Shown one piece after another: positions 5,690 to 14,822 of a DNA stretch of 53,417 nt; position 1 is the first letter of the stretch, and the number at the start of each line of letters is the position of its first letter. Both the position numbers and the translations under genes were made by a program. Below the pieces are notes generated by a model. It was given only the letters and a program-made list of their open reading frames with translations, was not told the origin of the DNA and searched no databases. Source of the DNA: Sphingobacteriaceae bacterium (GTDB taxonomy: Bacteria; Bacteroidota; Bacteroidia; B-17B0; Aurantibacillaceae); contig CANKBS010000025.1 of the NCBI GenBank assembly GCA_947480015.1, positions 1 to 53,417 of the forward strand. The letters are read 5' to 3'.

Positions 5690-7663
5690 ATGAAAAAATA
5701 TTTAGTTGTAGGTATGATACTGGCTTTGGGCATAACGCTTTCAGCCCAATCACCACGCGTTTCTTTGTATGAGGAATTTACCGGTGAAACGTGTCCGCCC
5801 TGTGCCGCTACCAATCCGGGTTTAAACACCCTTTTGCTTTCGGCTACCAATGCTACACGTATTGTGGCCATTAAATGGCAGGTGCCCATTCCTTCGGCGC
5901 CAAGTAATACGTGGTCGCTTTACCAAACCAATAAAACAGAAATTGACTGGCGCTGGAAAACGGTTGCCAACGGAGGTTATGGCTATTCGCCGGCAATCAA
6001 TTCAGCACCCTCGAGTAAACTAGATGGTCGTGAAGCCACCGTATTTGGTGCTGCCTCCGGACATCCCGCCAATTTAAACAATACCGTTATTTCAAATGCT
6101 GTGAGCAAAGCTTCTTCATTTAATATTATCATGTCACGATCTGCTATCACCAATATTTCTACATCGGCAGTGGTAAATGTTACTGTTCAGGCAACAAGTC
6201 CTTATACTACAACAAGCAATTTAATTTTTCGCACCGTATTAGTTGAACGTCTCATTCAATTTAGTGTAGCGCCGGGTTCAAATGGTGAAACCAAATTTGA
6301 AGACGTTGCCAGGAAGTCATATCCCACTTTACAAAGCGGAACCGCATTGCCACAAACATGGACACAAGGACAAATCATGACTTTTTCGATGAACTGTGTT
6401 TTTCCAACTTATATTAATTCAAACCTTCAAATTGAGTTTGTAGGGTTTATACAAAACGACGGCACGCAAAAAGTAGAACAGGTTTCACGCACCGGTATGC
6501 CAACGCAAACTTTTGATGCTGTAGCCGCTACGGTAAATCCACCCTTTACCTGTTCGACATCAAATACCTTAGCCCCAACAGTGCCGGTTAAAAACGATGG
6601 GCAATCGAACATTACAGCCGTTACCATTACCCCCTATGTGGATGGTGTGCCTAAAACAACCACCCAATGGACAGGTGTGATTAATCCGGGTTTTAGTGCT
6701 TTTATTCCACTCAACGCCTTTACAATTGGATCGCTCAGTGGTCAACATACTTTCTCGTATACTATTTCAGGACTAAATGGTACAGACAATAATCTAAGCA
6801 ATAATGGAGCCTCCGGAACTTTTTACGGTGTTAGCAATTATCAATCCACTCCTATTGTTGAAGGATTTTCGACAAGTGGTTGGCCTTATACACAGTGGTT
6901 AGTAACGAATGCCAACGCTGCAAACGCCAGCTGGTCATTTGCCAATGGCATTGAAGCCTATGGTTTAGGTGCCGGTAATTGTTTAAAATATGATTTCTAT
7001 AATAATACTGTAGTAAATGATCAGGACGAATTATTATTACCACCCATTGATTTAACAGGCGTTGGTATTCCAATCATGACCTTTGATATTGCATATGAAT
7101 TAAGAACCGCAAACAGTTCAGATAAACTGGAGCTCATGCTTTCGACCAATTGTGGCGCAACCTGGACCAGCATGTGGTCGGCTGCCGGTTCTGCTCTGGC
7201 TGTGAATCAGGTGCCTGATGCAAATGATTATGCGAGTCCACAAGGCAGCGACTGGACGAATATTTCGGTGAGTTTACCGGGCTTTAACCAAGCCAATGTG
7301 CTGGCTAAATTTGTAACAACGAATAAAAACGGTAACAATTTATATTTAGACAATATTAATTTAGCTTCCAGTAGTATTCCAAATGGTTTAAGTAAAAACA
7401 CTTCCTCACAGGTTAAGCTGGCTGTATATCCAAATCCAAGTTCAGGTGTTTCACAACTTAGTATTCACAGTAACAAAAATCAAATGGCAAGCCTTACCAT
7501 TATGAATGCACTAGGACAAGTGGTGATTGAAAAAAACGTGGACTTGAATGCCGGTAACACAAGCAGCAGTATAGATTTGAGCGCTTACGCAAACGGGATT
7601 TATTTAATAAGTCTTGAAGTGGAAAATTTTAAAACCACTAGCCGTGTGTCGCTGAGTCGCTAA
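5690..7663 (+). CDS. Omp28-related T9SS-secreted protein
   Basis: Signal peptide MKKYLVVGMILALGITLSAQ. Residues of about 21-270 match the Omp28-related family: RVSLYEEFTGETCPPCAATN is a thioredoxin-like strand-turn with a CPPC motif, seen in Porphyromonas Omp28 relatives. A CARDB-like adhesion domain follows (about 275-385, VPVKNDGQSNITAVTITPY). A jelly-roll region comes next (about 390-570), then a type A T9SS sorting domain from LAVYPNPSSG to the end. It is probably carried to the cell surface and may be anchored or released there. It has its own promoter element and a strong terminator, so it is a single-gene unit. Confidence 0.85.
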   Translation: MKKYLVVGMILALGITLSAQSPRVSLYEEFTGETCPPCAATNPGLNTLLLSATNATRIVAIKWQVPIPSAPSNTWSLYQTNKTEIDWRWKTVANGGYGYSPAINSAPSSKLDGREATVFGAASGHPANLNNTVISNAVSKASSFNIIMSRSAITNISTSAVVNVTVQATSPYTTTSNLIFRTVLVERLIQFSVAPGSNGETKFEDVARKSYPTLQSGTALPQTWTQGQIMTFSMNCVFPTYINSNLQIEFVGFIQNDGTQKVEQVSRTGMPTQTFDAVAATVNPPFTCSTSNTLAPTVPVKNDGQSNITAVTITPYVDGVPKTTTQWTGVINPGFSAFIPLNAFTIGSLSGQHTFSYTISGLNGTDNNLSNNGASGTFYGVSNYQSTPIVEGFSTSGWPYTQWLVTNANAANASWSFANGIEAYGLGAGNCLKYDFYNNTVVNDQDELLLPPIDLTGVGIPIMTFDIAYELRTANSSDKLELMLSTNCGATWTSMWSAAGSALAVNQVPDANDYASPQGSDWTNISVSLPGFNQANVLAKFVTTNKNGNNLYLDNINLASSSIPNGLSKNTSSQVKLAVYPNPSSGVSQLSIHSNKNQMASLTIMNALGQVVIEKNVDLNAGNTSSSIDLSAYANGIYLISLEVENFKTTSRVSLSR

Positions 7664-7800: not shown

Positions 7801-8433
7801 TTAGTGGGAGCAGCAGAAGCATTCATTGGTTTTGATAGTTAAGCTGTCATTTTTATATACATAACTTAATTTTCCCAGCTCATGGTTTTTATGATTTAGG
7901 CCATGATAATTGCTTGTGACTGATTTATAAAAACTGAAAGTGATTGCGGAGTCACTTTTAACAATAAGCGCATATGGCCCGGCGTCGAGTATTGATTTAT
8001 AGGGGTTTTCATTGAGAACCACATTCATCTGCCCACAATTTATTAAGTTATTATTCGCGAATAAATAAATAGAAATCCCATGCGTCACCTCAGCTCCTGT
8101 TGAACTTAAAATAACTATGCCATCTGAGGCCAAGCTTGATTTGTAAAAATGAGCTTTGATGTAATCCTCCTCTCCCACTCTAATGTCTTCATAAATGATT
8201 TGTTTTAATTTACTGTCGTATAAAATTAAGCCAATGCCCTTTGGGCTAGCCGTTTTGCGTCCGAAATAAATAATTTTACTGTCCGACAACTTAGCCGATT
8301 GGTTAATTACAAAATTATTTAGGTGAGGCGGCGATGTCGTTTTTTTCGGTCTAAATAAAACGTAAGTGTGGTTTAGGTTTATGAATCCAAATACAACTAA
8401 AAGTATTATTGGCAGGAATTTTAGTGTGTTCAT
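7801..8433 (-). CDS. Membrane-anchored or exported protein of unknown function
   Basis: The ATG at 8433 (MNTLKFLPIILLVVFGFINL) begins a hydrophobic signal or anchor segment; a GTG four codons earlier is also possible. The rest (about 190 residues) has no recognised domain. It ends in a short Cys-rich tail ECFCCSH that could bind metal. It is convergent with the Omp28-type gene. Nothing else can be inferred. Confidence 0.55.
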   Translation of the reverse strand: MNTLKFLPIILLVVFGFINLNHTYVLFRPKKTTSPPHLNNFVINQSAKLSDSKIIYFGRKTASPKGIGLILYDSKLKQIIYEDIRVGEEDYIKAHFYKSSLASDGIVILSSTGAEVTHGISIYLFANNNLINCGQMNVVLNENPYKSILDAGPYALIVKSDSAITFSFYKSVTSNYHGLNHKNHELGKLSYVYKNDSLTIKTNECFCCSH

Positions 8434-8514
8434 TTTATCAGTCACAGAGTGACAACGCCTTCATTTATTTACTCATTTATAAACTCCTCAATTTTTTTGT
8501 AATCCCAATGTAAA

Positions 8515-8597: not shown

Positions 8598-8647
8598 TGC
8601 GTTCTCGTCCAGCGCTAAAGGCGCAGGCCTATAACGCAGACATCGTC
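8598..8647. repeat. 50 bp direct repeat covering the 3' end of the phosphatase gene
   Basis: The gene-internal copy of the repeat described at 8515-8564. It covers the last codons, the stop at 8615-8617 and 17 bp beyond. Confidence 0.9.
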
Positions 8648-10762
8648 GACTTGCTCGAGATCGCCTTTCCAGTGATTAAAGGCTTTATTAATTATATCGG
8701 ATTGTTCGTTTATATGCATGGTGTTGTGTTCTAATAAGAGATCGGAGAATTGTTTGTATTTAAACTTTTTACCTTTAGGTCCACCAAACTGATCGGCAAA
8801 ACCATCGGTGAATAAATAAAAGATACTGTCTTTTTTATAAGGTATGTCATGCGTGGTAAAAGGTTGTGGCTGGTCGGTTTTTCCGATGGCTTGTTTATCA
8901 GCTTTTATTTCAACAAATTCGTTCTCTGTCACATACCAAAGCGGATTATTAGCGCCACTCCAGAATATTTTTTTATGTACTGTGTCGATGCATAACAATG
9001 ATATATCCATGCCATCTTTCACATCGGTGCTGCTTTTCTCAAAAGTTTCAACCACCAATTCTCGGGTCTTGTCAAGTATTTTCCCCGTTTCGGTTAATTG
9101 AAATTCTTTGATGCTCCGATTTAAGGCACTGCTGCAAACCAGCGACACCATGGCTCCCGGCACACCATGTCCGGTGCTATCGGCAGCTGCAATAAAAAAC
9201 AAATTATTAACTTTTTCGGCCCAGTAAAAATCACCGGCCACTATGTCTTTAGGTTTATATATTATAAAAGTACCCGGTAAGTGTTTATTAATAAAATCCT
9301 GCGGAGGCAATATGGCTTCCTGCAAACGTTTGGCGTAAGAAATACTCTCTAAAATTTCTTTTTGTTTTTCTTCCACCAGGTGTTTTTGCGCTTCCACTTC
9401 CAATTTTTTTAACTCTGTTATTTCCTTCTGTTCCTTCAGCGCTGCATTGGTTATCTTGCGTAAATAATTACTTCGGATAATAAAAAACACCAAAACAAAA
9501 AAGGCGAGAATGACCATTAAAAAATAAATGATGGTTTGTCGCGAATCGCTTAACTCCGAATCTTTGGCATTTAGTAATAACAGCCCCTTTTCATTTTCCC
9601 CTTTAAGTCTCGATATTTCTTCCTGCTTTTTAATGGTAGCAAATTTTGCATTTAGATTACTGATCTGATTGGCTAGTGCCGTGTTTAAATTTTTATTTTC
9701 CGAATTAATGATATCGGTGAGCACCTGGTATTCAGCATTTTTAATTTCGTATTGCAAATCGGTGAATTTATTAATCACATATAACACCGGCATGTTATAA
9801 AAATGCGTCATTTCCCAAGATATGGGTTCTCCGTTTTCATCGGTGTAACCATCGGTATTGAGGTTTAAACCTTCCTTAATAATAATTCTGTTTTGTTCGA
9901 GTGCCAGATTTAAAAGTGAATCGCTGAAAGTAGTGATGAGAGATTTTAATTTTTGTGCCGAATACTTGCCATTATTCGGTTTAAATTCATTTCCAATAAG
10001 TATCTCTGTGGGCAAATCAACATCCACAGCATTATGAATCTGTATGCATGACAAAGTATCAGACTGTTTAAGCGAAATAGTCTCCGCTTTTGAAATGACA
10101 AAGGACTTTAAACATTGAATGTGTGCGATAGCAGAATCGGTTAATGCCTGTAGTTTTCTGGCCTTTATAAAAAGATCCTGATCTGCTTCACCTTTTACAA
10201 AATTTACACTCCTATATAATTGTTTGTTTCGCGATGTGGCTGCCTTTAGTGCTTCTTCTGTGCTCAGGCCTTGTTGTAAAACCGTATTAATTTTTATGCG
10301 TCCGCTGCTCGAATTCATGAGACTGCCGAGTGAATGACAGAAAAAATACATAACGATTAAAATGGCGTGTGATCGGTCGATTGATGTTTTTTGTGATTTA
10401 TAAAGTTGCACCAAGGCATACGGAATAACCAGCACCAAAAGAATGGTATTGTTGACTACAAAAAAAACAGAAGCACCGGGCCAATGCATGATTTTAAAAA
10501 TAAATCCCAGCGCGAAAAAAAACAAAATACTACTCTGTGCCAGCAGTATTATTTTTTGCCTGTTTGTTTGTTTGGATTTCAAGTTCTCAAGCACATACAA
10601 GGGCATATAAAAGAATCCCAAGAAAAAGGTCCCCAGGGTTAGCAAAAGGGAAGCGCCCGGATAGTGGTATATTTTAAAAAACTCGCCTATTAGAGTTGGA
10701 ACAATTGAAAGCCAGACTAGGCTGCTTAGTATTTTTGATGGCCTGATTTGTTGCGTGGTCAT
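8615..10762 (-). CDS. SpoIIE-type PP2C phosphatase with GldL- and GldM-like N-terminal half
   Basis: Start at the ATG at 10762 (MTTQQIRPSK); a TTG lies two codons earlier. Residues 1-145 are membrane segments that twice contain a GldL-like motif: FFKIYHYPGAS near 30 and FKIMHWPGAS near 90. Residues of about 150-400 resemble the first periplasmic domain of GldM, clearest in WEMTHFYNMPVLYVINKF near 317 and IKNAEYQVL near 340. A transmembrane helix (about 412-430) and a coiled coil with ESISYAKRLQEAILPP follow. The C-terminal domain (about 495-715) is a SpoIIE/PP2C Ser/Thr phosphatase: GDFYW, ADSTGHGVPGAM, DGMDISL, TDGFADQFGG and a terminal DD metal motif. Inference: the periplasmic part senses something and the phosphatase acts on an anti-sigma-antagonist type partner. 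Confidence 0.8.
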   Translation of the reverse strand: MTTQQIRPSKILSSLVWLSIVPTLIGEFFKIYHYPGASLLLTLGTFFLGFFYMPLYVLENLKSKQTNRQKIILLAQSSILFFFALGFIFKIMHWPGASVFFVVNNTILLVLVIPYALVQLYKSQKTSIDRSHAILIVMYFFCHSLGSLMNSSSGRIKINTVLQQGLSTEEALKAATSRNKQLYRSVNFVKGEADQDLFIKARKLQALTDSAIAHIQCLKSFVISKAETISLKQSDTLSCIQIHNAVDVDLPTEILIGNEFKPNNGKYSAQKLKSLITTFSDSLLNLALEQNRIIIKEGLNLNTDGYTDENGEPISWEMTHFYNMPVLYVINKFTDLQYEIKNAEYQVLTDIINSENKNLNTALANQISNLNAKFATIKKQEEISRLKGENEKGLLLLNAKDSELSDSRQTIIYFLMVILAFFVLVFFIIRSNYLRKITNAALKEQKEITELKKLEVEAQKHLVEEKQKEILESISYAKRLQEAILPPQDFINKHLPGTFIIYKPKDIVAGDFYWAEKVNNLFFIAAADSTGHGVPGAMVSLVCSSALNRSIKEFQLTETGKILDKTRELVVETFEKSSTDVKDGMDISLLCIDTVHKKIFWSGANNPLWYVTENEFVEIKADKQAIGKTDQPQPFTTHDIPYKKDSIFYLFTDGFADQFGGPKGKKFKYKQFSDLLLEHNTMHINEQSDIINKAFNHWKGDLEQVDDVCVIGLRL

Positions 10763-11141
10763 GAGCAAAATTTAAAATTAAAGATACATATTCCAATGGA
10801 GTATTGAACTTCTGATGATTTAAGTCATAGTGGCAAATACTTGAGCGTTGTAAACCTTTTTTTATGCTGTAAGTAACAATTATTTAGTCACGTCGCCAAA
10901 AACGTTTACGCCACTATGCAGCGGTATCCATTGCGATTTATTGAGGACCTGATAATATGATTTTTACTCTTCTTATTATTTCGTTTGCTGAATGGTAATA
11001 AGGGAATTGCAGTTTACTTGCGCAGTTGAGTTCAAAAGATGAGTTCAGCTTCCATCGTGTTAAATGCCTTTTATGATTTTAGCTGTATGTTAAATGTCGA
11101 TAGTTTGGTTTTTAATGTGTAACTTTAATAAAAAGAAATCC
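10763..11141. other. Intergenic region between divergent genes, no gene seen
   Basis: About 380 bp between the SpoIIE-type gene and a T9SS cargo gene, so it must hold both promoters. A TAACTTTA at 11120-11127 could be a weak -7 element for the plus-strand gene. No RNA gene, hairpin terminator or open coding relic was recognised. Confidence 0.5.
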
Positions 11142-13427
11142 ATGAGAACCTTATTCCTATTTCTGATTAGTTTTATCCCACTTTTCTGTTTTTCGCAAAT
11201 GGAAAATACACAATGGCGCTTTGGTAGCCAGTGCGGACTCAGTTTTACAACTAATCCGGCTGTGTTGGTGAGTTCAAATATTAGTAACGGCGGAGGAAGT
11301 TGTTCAAGCATTGCCGATGCCGCCGGTAATCTTCTCTTCTACACAGATGGATATGATGTTTGGAATCGTTTCAACTTACAAATGGCCGGAGCGAATATAC
11401 CTCTTATGGGTGCCGGATCCACTCAAGGCGTACTCATTGCTAAACAACCCGGAAATAATCCCTATTATTATATATTTGCTTCAGGCGTTCAGGGCATGCG
11501 CTATTCGATTGTCGACATGAGTTTGGCCGCTGGCATAGGCTCAGTAACCGTTAAAAATGTTACACTTACTACACAAATACAATCCTATAAAATTGCAGGA
11601 ACCAAGCATTGCAACAAATCGGATGTTTGGATCGTTTCTCAAGACCAGGGACAGAATTCGTGGCGGGCTTACCAACTTACAAGTACAGGTATTACAGGAC
11701 CCGTTGTTTCTAATACAGGACATACTCATATTGTTTATGCCGCCATGAAATTTTCGCCCGATGGTTCAAAAATTGCTTCTACCGAATGGGGTGACGGGGT
11801 TTACCTTTATGATTTTAATAAATCGACCGGTGCCGTTTCTGGCATGACCGTTGTTAGCGGTCAGGGCTTTGCAGCATGGGCTGTTGAATTTTCTCCCGAC
11901 AGTAAAAAACTATACGCCACACGAAGTTATGCCACTGTTTTACAGTGGGATTTGGCGGCTGGCAGTGCTGCAGCCATTGCTGCCAGTGTTGACACCATTT
12001 ATGTAACGCCAATGAATTTTAATGGAAATCAGGGAGCACTTCAACTTGCCCCTGACGGAAAAATTTATCAGACTTACGGAAATGCACAGGTGCTTAGTAT
12101 TATACAAAACCCTAACGGATTAGGTGCCGCTTGCAATTATTCATTCGCCGCCATAAACATAAGCCCTAAAATAACCGGTCATGGACTTCCTAATCTGGTT
12201 AAACCCATGCTTCCCCTTCCTTCATTTGCCAACACAATAAGTCAAGCCACTTGCCAAACTTTGCAATTTAGTCCAATCACCACAACCGTGGGTGGTTTAA
12301 GTTCATTACTTCCAACAACAGCCAATTGGATATTTGGAGATCCTGCTTCAGGGCCGTCCAATTATTCTTCGCAACTTAATCCTACGCATGTTTATTCAGG
12401 CTCCGGCGTATATAGCGTTCAAATGATCATCGCAAATCCTTGTGGCGTTCCTGATACTGTTAATCAGGTGGTGAATGTCCCGAATAATGTATCTACACTT
12501 TCATTGGGCGGAAACACCTTAATTTGTATGGGTGCAACCACAACCTTAAATGTTAGCGGCGCCGGCACTTACACTTGGAATTCAAACTTAGGTCAGACTA
12601 CGGGCGCAACTATAATTGTCAATCCAACTGCATCGCTTGTTTTTACTGTAAGTGCTATGAATGGGAATTCCTGCGTCACAAACTCAATCCTAGCGGTTAC
12701 GGTGCTTCCTCCTTCTGTATTTTATGTTTCAGGTCAAACACAACTTTGCCTAGGCGAAAGCGCCACACTTACTGCTAATGGCGTTAGCAATTATACCTGG
12801 ACCACGGCCTCAGGTCCGGTGGGAACCAGCTCCGTAATTACTTTGAACCCTGCACTAGGTGTATATAATTATACACTGTTTGGTTTTAATCCGTCTCTCA
12901 GCTGTATAGGCCAGTTGTTCATAACACTTACGGTTTCACCATACCCAACGCTAAGTATATTAGGTCCTACCATGGTGTGCACAGGCGATGCTGTGAACTT
13001 GTTAGCAACGGGGGCAAGTAACTATACCTGGACTTTCACTGGAGGAACAACAAGCGGACCAAGCATAAGCACCTTATTATCTTCACCTTTAAACTATACA
13101 CTAAGCGCAAGTGATCCCACTGGCAATTGTATAAGCAAAGTGGTATCATCGGTAGCCACCAATGCCTGCCTTGGACTTTCATCCAATGCGATTGATAAAT
13201 TCAAGATCTATCCTAATCCCTTTCAGGATCAATTAGAAATTGACAGTCACATCACATTCAGTTTAAGTATTCATAATTTAAATGGCCAATTCATGTATAG
13301 TACTGAAGGGTGTGTGGGAATAAATGTTATCGATCTTTCAGCATTGCCTGGAGGAGCCTATTCCCTGATGATCCAATCGGAGCAAGGAAATAGTTACCGA
13401 AAATTGGTGAAACTAGTTTCTCCATAA
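11142..13427 (+). CDS. T9SS cargo protein with beta-propeller, PKD and repeated Ig-like domains
   Basis: The ATG at 11142 gives a signal peptide (MRTLFLFLISFIPLFCFSQ); upstream in-frame codons are probably untranslated. Residues of about 20-350 form a beta-propeller-like region (repeated FSPDGSKIAST and FSPDSKKLYATR blades). A PKD domain lies at about 375-460 (WIFGDPASG...HVYSGSGVYSV). Then come three Ig-like repeats with a common pattern: LICMGATTTLNVSGAGTYTW, QLCLGESATLTANGVSNYTW and MVCTGDAVNLLATGASNYTW. It ends in a type A sorting domain from FKIYPNPFQDQLEI. This architecture is typical of large surface or gliding-associated adhesins. The ligand is unknown. Confidence 0.85.
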   Translation: MRTLFLFLISFIPLFCFSQMENTQWRFGSQCGLSFTTNPAVLVSSNISNGGGSCSSIADAAGNLLFYTDGYDVWNRFNLQMAGANIPLMGAGSTQGVLIAKQPGNNPYYYIFASGVQGMRYSIVDMSLAAGIGSVTVKNVTLTTQIQSYKIAGTKHCNKSDVWIVSQDQGQNSWRAYQLTSTGITGPVVSNTGHTHIVYAAMKFSPDGSKIASTEWGDGVYLYDFNKSTGAVSGMTVVSGQGFAAWAVEFSPDSKKLYATRSYATVLQWDLAAGSAAAIAASVDTIYVTPMNFNGNQGALQLAPDGKIYQTYGNAQVLSIIQNPNGLGAACNYSFAAINISPKITGHGLPNLVKPMLPLPSFANTISQATCQTLQFSPITTTVGGLSSLLPTTANWIFGDPASGPSNYSSQLNPTHVYSGSGVYSVQMIIANPCGVPDTVNQVVNVPNNVSTLSLGGNTLICMGATTTLNVSGAGTYTWNSNLGQTTGATIIVNPTASLVFTVSAMNGNSCVTNSILAVTVLPPSVFYVSGQTQLCLGESATLTANGVSNYTWTTASGPVGTSSVITLNPALGVYNYTLFGFNPSLSCIGQLFITLTVSPYPTLSILGPTMVCTGDAVNLLATGASNYTWTFTGGTTSGPSISTLLSSPLNYTLSASDPTGNCISKVVSSVATNACLGLSSNAIDKFKIYPNPFQDQLEIDSHITFSLSIHNLNGQFMYSTEGCVGINVIDLSALPGGAYSLMIQSEQGNSYRKLVKLVSP

Positions 13428-14171: not shown

Positions 14172-14822
14172 TTAAAGGCAAAAACTAAGCAAAAGGAAGT
14201 CGCTATCAAAAGTAGGATGTGGCTTGTTTTTTTCATACTCATTTTCCATTATAGTTTCATACAGACTATCGTTTTCCGCTAGATATTTTTGTTCTGAGGA
14301 AACTTTAACTTTGTGTGGTATTAACCCGTTAAAACCATTTGTAAATTTCAGTTGATGGATGCGACATTCTCCTTCCTGTGGTTTTTTACCGCTAATCATA
14401 CCAAAGTTTAATAATTTTGAACTTAAAGACACAACCGTAGAATCAAATCTTTCAACTTTATACTTGCCAATATCTTTTCGTTTGTATTTCCGATTTAATA
14501 GCTCTGCTATTTTATAAAAAAGCTCCTCAAAATAAGAACTTGGTATAGTTGATATTCTGTCTCTTATTGAACTGTGGCGGGTGGACGAATCAGGTTTTAA
14601 GCCTGAAAAGGATTGAAGTTTTTGTGTGCTAAATAACTCCTCCATCACTCTGAGGCTCAAACGTTCACTTTGTAAAATCCCCATGAGTAATAAATTAAAC
14701 ATAAGCTTTCCGCTCAGTTTTTTTATCTGAAAGTCTACATTTGTTTCATCTGCTATTTTATCGAAGAAGTGTTCTGGGATTAATTGCAATAGATCAATTA
14801 CTCCTGTTCTTTTAGCCTTCAT
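14172..14822 (-). pseudogene. Truncated IS4-type transposase (N-terminal half)
   Basis: The 216 codons cover the N-terminal part and first catalytic Asp region (KVERFDSTVVSLSSKLL) of an IS4/IS1634-like DDE transposase, with KFTNGFNGLIPHKV after it. After EYEKN the homologous sequence stops and the frame ends in an unrelated tail (PTFDSDFLLLSFCL). The second Asp and the Glu of the DDE triad are missing, so the protein should be inactive. No matching C-terminal part is seen between 14048 and 14171, which points to a deletion rather than a frameshift. Confidence 0.75.

Follow-up and report, generated by a model that had tools for sequence, protein, structure and literature searches.

GldL and GldM (PorL and PorM) form the 5:2 membrane motor of gliding and of the type IX secretion system (T9SS), and a 2022 review describes the GldLM system as exclusive to Bacteroidetes and treats it as a motor (PMC9389320). 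A glutamate in the second transmembrane helix (TMH2) of GldL, E49 in F. johnsoniae, is reported to be essential for the motor and strictly conserved (PMC8986121). In the SiaABCD system of P. aeruginosa, the PP2C domain of SiaA is reported to be a dimer, and SiaB and SiaA are reported to balance the phosphorylation of SiaC at T68, in the peptide LLYLNTSSIK (PMC7647112). Here we analyse a contig of a Sphingobacteriaceae bacterium (CANKBS010000025.1, assembly GCA_947480015.1), the whole of which, 53,417 nucleotides, we call the window; it is one complete contig of a 3.77-Mb genome. One of its genes, P0001, encodes a SpoIIE-type phosphatase fused to genuine GldL- and GldM-related sequence. This fusion had been proposed in the initial annotation of the contig, and it is borne out by Pfam, a blind search of PDB sequences, the fold and profile-profile comparison, so that we regard it as fully supported by profiles and fold.

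The window protein resembles the GldL/GldM motor in its GldL-type hairpins, in the position of its GldM-type transmembrane helix and in the fold of the first GldM periplasmic domain (D1). It differs from the motor in that all parts lie in one chain, the TMH2 glutamate is missing, the GldM domains D2-D4 and the GldL cytoplasmic tail are absent, the chain ends in a phosphatase and the scores stay below the cut-offs of the NCBIfam models TIGR03517 and TIGR03513. With SiaA it shares the PP2C domain together with its N-terminal helix, for which SiaA is the best NCBIfam and fold match, and SiaC and SiaB are both encoded in the genome; the sensor half, however, is unrelated to the SiaA model. The TPR- or 7TMR-type SpoIIE phosphatases of Bacteroidota, of which the genome encodes nine others, have the linker, the last transmembrane helix and the PP2C domain in common with it. 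Their input domains differ from those of the window protein and, judging by eye, are presumably TPR repeats, beta-propeller/7TM-like, PAS and HAMP domains. Finally, a family of PadR-linked proteins (for example L053 and L186) has the GldL repeats, the GldM D1 fold and the same loss of the glutamate, but carries an N-terminal helical domain of about 80 residues and not a phosphatase.

We consider it most probable, at roughly two chances in three, that the window protein is a sensor phosphatase of the SiaA type whose input comes from a proton-dead module derived from GldLM within the same chain, and that it probably acts on SiaC. In the open-access literature (subscription papers and preprints were outside the scope) we found nothing linking GldM to SpoIIE or PP2C, nothing relevant linking GldL to PadR or to a paralog or sensor in Bacteroidota, and no use of the terms GldL-like, GldM-like, GldLM-like, PorM-like or PorL-like; searches by family accession gave no paper on this fusion, judged by title. 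In the proteins described here, GldL and GldM parts share a single chain that lacks the proton glutamate and is coupled to signalling outputs. The features of the gene are listed in Table 1.

Table 1. Features of the fusion gene and of its neighbours, with positions in the window.
Feature	Position	Strand	Remarks
GldL x2 - GldM-D1 - PP2C phosphatase gene (P0001)	8615..10762	(-)	715 aa; ATG at 10762; stop codon 8615-8617
GldL-type hairpin 1	10580..10735	(-)	residues 10-61; FKIYHYPGAS loop; Leu48 at GldL TMH2 Glu position; Pro54 family-specific
GldL-type hairpin 2	10397..10564	(-)	residues 67-122; FKIMHWPGAS loop; Leu108 replaces Glu; Pro114
GldM-type transmembrane helix	10307..10369	(-)	residues 132-152; inside the range aligned with 7sau_B; low model confidence (pLDDT about 45-55)
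GldM first periplasmic domain D1	9692..10294	(-)	residues 157-357
Helical linker, last transmembrane helix (411-429) and cytoplasmic signalling helix	9311..9691	(-)	residues 358-484
SpoIIE/PP2C phosphatase domain, SiaA-like	8618..9310	(-)	residues 485-715
Divergent neighbour, T9SS type A sorting domain (cargo)	11094..13427	(+)	context only
Second flanking T9SS cargo gene	5690..7663	(+)	context only
Downstream small protein	7801..8445	(-)	214 aa; without Pfam match; same strand as the fusion gene, possibly co-transcribed

Relationship of the N-terminal half to GldL and GldM

Three Pfam families match the window protein above their cut-offs: SpoIIE with 61.6 bits (cut-off 25) at residues 523-714, GldM_1st with 56.2 bits (E 5.9e-15; cut-off 25) at residues 169-353, and GldL_N with 28.2 bits for the whole protein (cut-off 24), contributed by two stretches. 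The two FKI-x-H-x-PGAS motifs that had been placed in membrane segments start at residues 29 and 89 and lie within the GldL-type hairpins, and the protein contains HFYNMPVLYVINKF and IKNAEYQVL. The genome has its own gldL-gldM pair on another contig. BLASTP alignment of the window protein with this GldL gave 37% identity over 46 and 65% over 17 residues, and with this GldM 23% over 185 residues, the E-values being those of a two-sequence database.

Profile-profile comparison matched D1 with true GldM at 99.9% (E 1e-34) and repeats 1 and 2 with true GldL at 96.9% and 97.2%; the PP2C controls stayed below 2%. The set of true GldL proteins used there was chosen with the profile of the fusion family itself, so the independent evidence for GldL comes from Pfam and from blind searches of PDB sequences and genomes. 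The blind searches used an alignment (A2) of only the N-terminal parts of fusion phosphatases. Among PDB sequences, places 1-8 were taken by GldM/PorM (best 3.6e-14) and the ninth by the GldL chain 7sau_C, with an E-value of 0.012 that is not significant alone; in genomes the profile found true GldM and true GldL, among them the window genome's own GldM at 4.6e-10 and its own GldL at 1.3e-5. The GldL signal in these searches is weaker than that of GldM. Both NCBIfam equivalog models scored below their cut-offs, GldM/PorM (TIGR03517) with 42 bits against 180 (E 5e-11; model positions 44-265 of 524 only) and GldL/PorL (TIGR03513) with 9.2 bits against 68.3 (E 1).

Hydropathy of the window protein indicated helices near residues 11-29, 37-57, 71-89, 99-117 and 411-429, and an AlphaFold2 model contributed one further helix at 132-152. 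The mean predicted local distance difference test score (pLDDT) of the model was 76.9 and its predicted template modelling score (pTM) 0.40; D1 and the PP2C domain were well predicted and residues about 121-160 poorly (pLDDT 45-55). D1 of the model superposed on PorM 7cmg with a Z score of 22.1 (183 residues, 2.0 Å), and the GldM chain 7sau_B matched residues 130-355 with a Z score of 22.0 (207 residues, 3.3 Å). The likeness to the first domain of GldM claimed in the initial annotation is therefore confirmed by the GldM_1st match and by the PorM overlay, and the two points on which that annotation had staked its reading, a profile match and a fold like that of GldM D1, both came out in its favour. 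In the probable topology, D1 and the FKxxHxPGA loops would face outwards and the phosphatase would lie on the inner side, which repeats the order GldL-GldL-GldM.

Loss of the proton glutamate

The glutamate site was defined as the position 19 residues after the F of FKxxHxP; only strict motifs were used, degenerate repeats being left uncounted, and 4 of the 24 GldL proteins have no strict motif. Glutamate occupied this site in 20/20 strict motifs of true GldL, as against 0/30 strict repeats from 18 fusion proteins, 0/145 repeats of the PadR-linked family and 0/57 repeats of unfused or second-gene relatives. In the window protein leucine is found at the site in both hairpins (Table 1). Six residues beyond it (+25), a proline was present in 30/30 fusion repeats, in 139/145 of the PadR-linked family and in 52/57 of the unfused or second-gene relatives, and in 0/20 of the true GldL motifs. 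Since the glutamate essential in GldL is absent, it is unlikely that the fusion protein is a motor by the known proton route. The earlier idea of a phosphatase built on motor-derived parts as a sensor, not a motor, gains support from this loss.

Alternatively, the protein could still work as a proton-driven motor or channel, using some other proton path, and control the phosphatase by rotating. In favour of this, the fusions keep the FKxxHxPGA motif that adjoins the proton site of GldL (K30 is invariant in 12/12, and the PadR-linked family keeps the motif too), together with the three-helix GldL-GldL-GldM arrangement. Against this stand the 0/30 count for the glutamate, with a single repeat having any acid in the helix stretch, and the two hairpins per chain (plus an extra degenerate pair in L024, L025 and L045), which do not give a 5:2 ratio in a simple dimer. 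We regard a working motor as very improbable, and on the 0/30 count it was set aside as the main explanation. The hairpin motif itself is retained and should therefore still have a role.

The phosphatase half and its likely partner

The best NCBIfam match of the window protein was SiaA (NF038263, E 6e-50), aligned over residues 455-715 with model positions 396-657. In agreement with this, the PP2C domain of the AlphaFold2 model fitted SiaA 6k4e with a Z score of 30.3 (242 residues, 2.6 Å), above the 22.2 obtained for the RsbU-type structure 3ke6. D511, D528, D583, D586, D653, D706 and D707, which we take to be the PP2C metal ligands, are identical in 18/18 fusion proteins, and for this reason the enzyme half looks active.

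The window genome contains ten SpoIIE genes (the window gene and nine others) and one SiaC (PF09345, 145 bits; cut-off 24.5), which lies directly behind a gene for a SiaB-family kinase (NF038262, 169.4; cut-off 85) and near a SpoIIE gene; the narrower equivalog cut-offs were not reached by either protein (SiaB, 93.5 vs 225; SiaC, 92.6 vs 150). Ten SpoIIE phosphatases beside a single SiaC might form a many-to-one signalling hub. SiaC was found in 15/15 of the tested genomes that carry a fusion (carriers), with 1 to 11 copies each, a count that covers carriers and not non-carriers. The best SiaC of each carrier has an FNTSS motif, which matches the T68 peptide of P. aeruginosa SiaC. In 3/17 distinct carrier loci viewed (L048:3194-9899, L059 and L063), SiaC is upstream on the same strand; after it come the genes for a lipoprotein-like protein and for an ABC transporter of 1018 aa (ABC_tran and ABC2_membrane), and the run leads straight into the fusion gene.

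The initial annotation had envisaged an anti-sigma-antagonist-type switch and had suggested a search for STAS genes. Two STAS matches were found in the window genome, one a stand-alone protein of 116 aa and the other in a 740-aa frame that reads by eye like a SulP-type transporter; STAS was dropped as the obvious partner, with the stand-alone protein retained as a rival. A classical STAS pair is the less likely switch. We favour SiaC/SiaB as the likely partner because both sequence and fold place the PP2C domain nearest to SiaA, SiaC is next to SiaB in the genome and SiaC-linked loci occur in three closely related carriers.

Distribution and modularity of the fusions

A full N-terminus was detected in 16/87 genomes of the taxonomic family, and widening the search to the order gave no genomes beyond these 87. 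In 14 of these carriers the frame is intact and measures 704-808 aa; in G012 the gene is split over contig ends, and in G490 it is interrupted by a stop, so that this genome is counted on its N-terminus with the phosphatase half outside the check. G024, where a sensor open reading frame (ORF) is directly followed by a PP2C ORF (L183), was excluded from the carrier count. Beyond the taxonomic family, fusions were found in G080, L059, L063 and L074. In a sample of 395 genomes of the phylum, the window's own was the sole full-length fusion listed, with a 740-aa frame of G332 (weak match, 9.4e-4) outside the check. In an alignment (A3) of 18 fusions and the unfused sensor L067, GldM_1st matched 19/19, SpoIIE 18/19 and GldL_N 15/19 proteins (E up to 0.001).

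Among close carriers the N-terminus is 54-63% identical. When L021, L059 and L063 were compared with the window protein, the identity was 54-55% in the sensor and 67-70% in the linker but only 40% in PP2C: the sensor was conserved while the catalytic half that follows it was swapped. The PP2C tree, from which row L183 was left out, did not unite the fusions in one clade: a single origin of the phosphatase half was rejected by the approximately unbiased test (p-AU 5e-6), and well-supported branches force at least seven changes. In the D1 tree, whose deep order and root are unsure, 17/18 fusion domains fell in one clade (99/97), which also holds the L067 sensor, one further unfused row, a fragment and four proteins of the PadR-linked family; the L074 domain was outside that clade, on the longest branch. 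A SpoIIE paralogue from the window genome is 67% identical to the window protein over residues 387-715.

The behaviour of the two halves also bears on the possibility that the window protein is an ordinary phosphatase of the RsbU/SpoIIE type with a STAS anti-anti-sigma factor as its substrate, its N-terminus serving merely as a membrane anchor. Membership of the SpoIIE family, the match to RsbU structures and the stand-alone STAS protein would all suit such an enzyme. By fold, however, SiaA is clearly above RsbU, besides being the best NCBIfam match, and an N-terminus that is conserved and kept while the catalytic half is exchanged is unlike a plain anchor, so we judge this possibility to be improbable.

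At L067:2547-5766, the gene for a protein with three GldL repeats and D1 (GldM_1st 1e-27, GldL_N 2.4e-17) adjoins the gene for another membrane protein, which in turn adjoins that for a SiaA-like phosphatase (1.7e-55). The same adjacent unfused gene set is present at L181, probably from the same organism; the two loci hold the parts of the fusion as an apparent operon of one lineage. Fusion variants of about 770-790 aa with an extra, degenerate hairpin-like helix pair at the N-terminus were seen in L024, L025 and L045, whose chains thus differ in their number of GldL-like hairpins. As to a role in phage defence, PADLOC gave no match for the window protein or for L053. Matches on plasmids were found in 25 records, none covering 80% of the query, and the five listed cover the phosphatase half only.

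A PadR-linked family of GldL/GldM-like proteins

The second group of proteins with this module was sampled by a contig scan with one peptide pattern, of which 80 matches are listed, and the counts are those of this sample. At least 68 PadR-linked proteins lie in L053-L218; members of the family are proteins of about 380-500 aa with the N-terminal helical domain (motif LLDHICC..E), two to three GldL repeats and a D1-like part. The alignment contained 30 of 34 rows (L122, L087, L093 and L108 were left out), of which GldL_N matched 30/30 and GldM_1st 18/30. A model of L186 (pLDDT 85.6) fitted PorM 7cmg with a Z score of 19.2 (168 residues, 2.0 Å), the next unrelated structure having a Z score of 9.0. 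The padR gene directly precedes the PadR-linked gene in 50/55 cases, and two of the five exceptions begin at most 100 bases from a sequence end; second-gene relatives lie directly behind a gene of the family in 24/28 cases. The window genome has one PadR-linked gene, L053:1219-2406 (G000:C17).

Found both with a SpoIIE phosphatase and with the PadR-linked helical domain, the GldL/GldM module appears with at least two outputs. We tentatively suggest, with somewhat more doubt than belief, that Bacteroidota have turned the membrane unit of the rotary motor of T9SS and gliding into a widespread signalling module, proton-dead and contained in one chain, whose outputs include a C-terminal SiaA-type phosphatase and an N-terminal helical domain coupled to PadR. 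Under the same tentative proposal, the GldM-type helices would twist or change conformation according to the state of the envelope or membrane, and this change would be passed to the output domain.

At L218:3546-8087 (G052:C62), padR, a GldL/GldM-like gene of the PadR-linked family, an ORF of 374 aa that contains two stretches of SiaB, and SiaC lie on one strand, and two PP2C genes adjoin this run. The arrangement suggests that the PadR-linked family also meets the SiaBC switch.

Proposed mechanism

As a sensor phosphatase of the inner membrane, the window protein would have six membrane helices. Two GldL-type hairpins and one GldM-type helix would make up a self-contained, motor-derived bundle, which would carry D1 in the periplasm; from D1 the chain would lead back through the last membrane helix and the helical linker to the SiaA-type PP2C domain in the cytoplasm. 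Having lost the glutamate through which GldL draws on the proton gradient, the bundle most likely changes its conformation instead of rotating. The trigger would be an envelope signal, for instance the energy or tension of the membrane or, at D1, a ligand or a partner. Contacts of D1 and PP2C in a putative dimer, together with the linker helices, would then switch the phosphatase on or off. A comparable passage of the signal to the PP2C dimer is assumed for SpoIIE/RsbU-type enzymes. The phosphatase would dephosphorylate SiaC that had been phosphorylated by the SiaB-type kinase, and the approximately ten SpoIIE phosphatases of the genome may converge on the one SiaC. Candidates for what the protein senses are a ligand, tension, the proton gradient and the native motor.

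Several observations weigh against this explanation. The confidence of the whole-chain model is modest (pTM 0.40), and none of the fold matches listed is a solved GldL chain, so that the packing of the hairpins is putative. The SiaA match, at 170.5 bits, is below the equivalog cut-off of 700. The SiaC count refers to carriers (control genomes, 0/14), the three SiaC-linked loci amount to about one lineage because they are close relatives, and the remaining 14/17 carrier loci viewed show no SiaC nearby. The stand-alone STAS protein is an alternative substrate. Lastly, 1/30 fusion repeats has an acidic residue within the helix, and a different proton path is conceivable despite the loss of the known glutamate.

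If the explanation is correct, nature has separated the GldLM scaffold from its motor function, and the fusion offers, in a single chain, a ready construct with which to study the transmission of conformational change by GldM helices. SiaA-type phosphatases would also gain a new class of input, and there would be a hypothesis of function for the large PadR-linked family, which is known in Pfam only by its GldL_N and GldM_1st matches.

Genomic surroundings

Both immediate neighbours of the fusion gene carry the T9SS sorting domain TIGR04183, in agreement with the initial annotation, which had noted T9SS cargo genes on both flanks. In the carrier loci viewed, the neighbours differ between carriers, and no cargo or motor gene is conserved beside the fusion gene; the 14 loci other than the three SiaC-linked ones have no neighbour in common. 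Since the neighbours vary in this way, they appear to lend no direct support to sensing of the T9SS motor or its cargo. A general linkage to T9SS was likewise set aside: a crude end-pattern flagged a cargo-type end in 3/15 relatives' loci (L047, L050 and L215), and this pattern misses some loci, L063 and L217 looking similar by eye.

The surroundings are relevant to the idea, raised in the initial annotation, that the protein senses the T9SS motor or its cargo. In a direct monitor of the T9SS/gliding motor, the GldL and GldM parts would assemble with native GldL, native GldM or the GldKN ring, or compete for them, and the phosphatase would report the state of the motor or the cargo load. Such a monitor would be in keeping with a module truly derived from GldLM, with the gldL-gldM pair of the window genome, with the true GldM matches visible in carriers (among them G010, G037, G003, G052, G046, G021, G038 and G042) and with the two flanking cargo genes. 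On the other hand, D1 turns back into the membrane, and the D2-D4 shaft by which GldM reaches the outer ring is absent, an argument against simple monitoring of the motor. The hairpin sequence has diverged (proline at +25 in 30/30 vs 0/20), the chain can form the bundle in cis with no need of partners, and the adjacent genes are not conserved as described above. We therefore consider a direct motor monitor unlikely, and a sensor phosphatase with a self-contained bundle remains our preferred explanation.

Elsewhere in the window, a partial match to an IS4-family transposase was seen at 14172-14822 on the (-) strand (51.4 bits vs 115), which is probably a remnant. At 1858-2445, also on the (-) strand, a 195-aa protein is made up almost entirely of two stretches of T9SS type A sorting domain.

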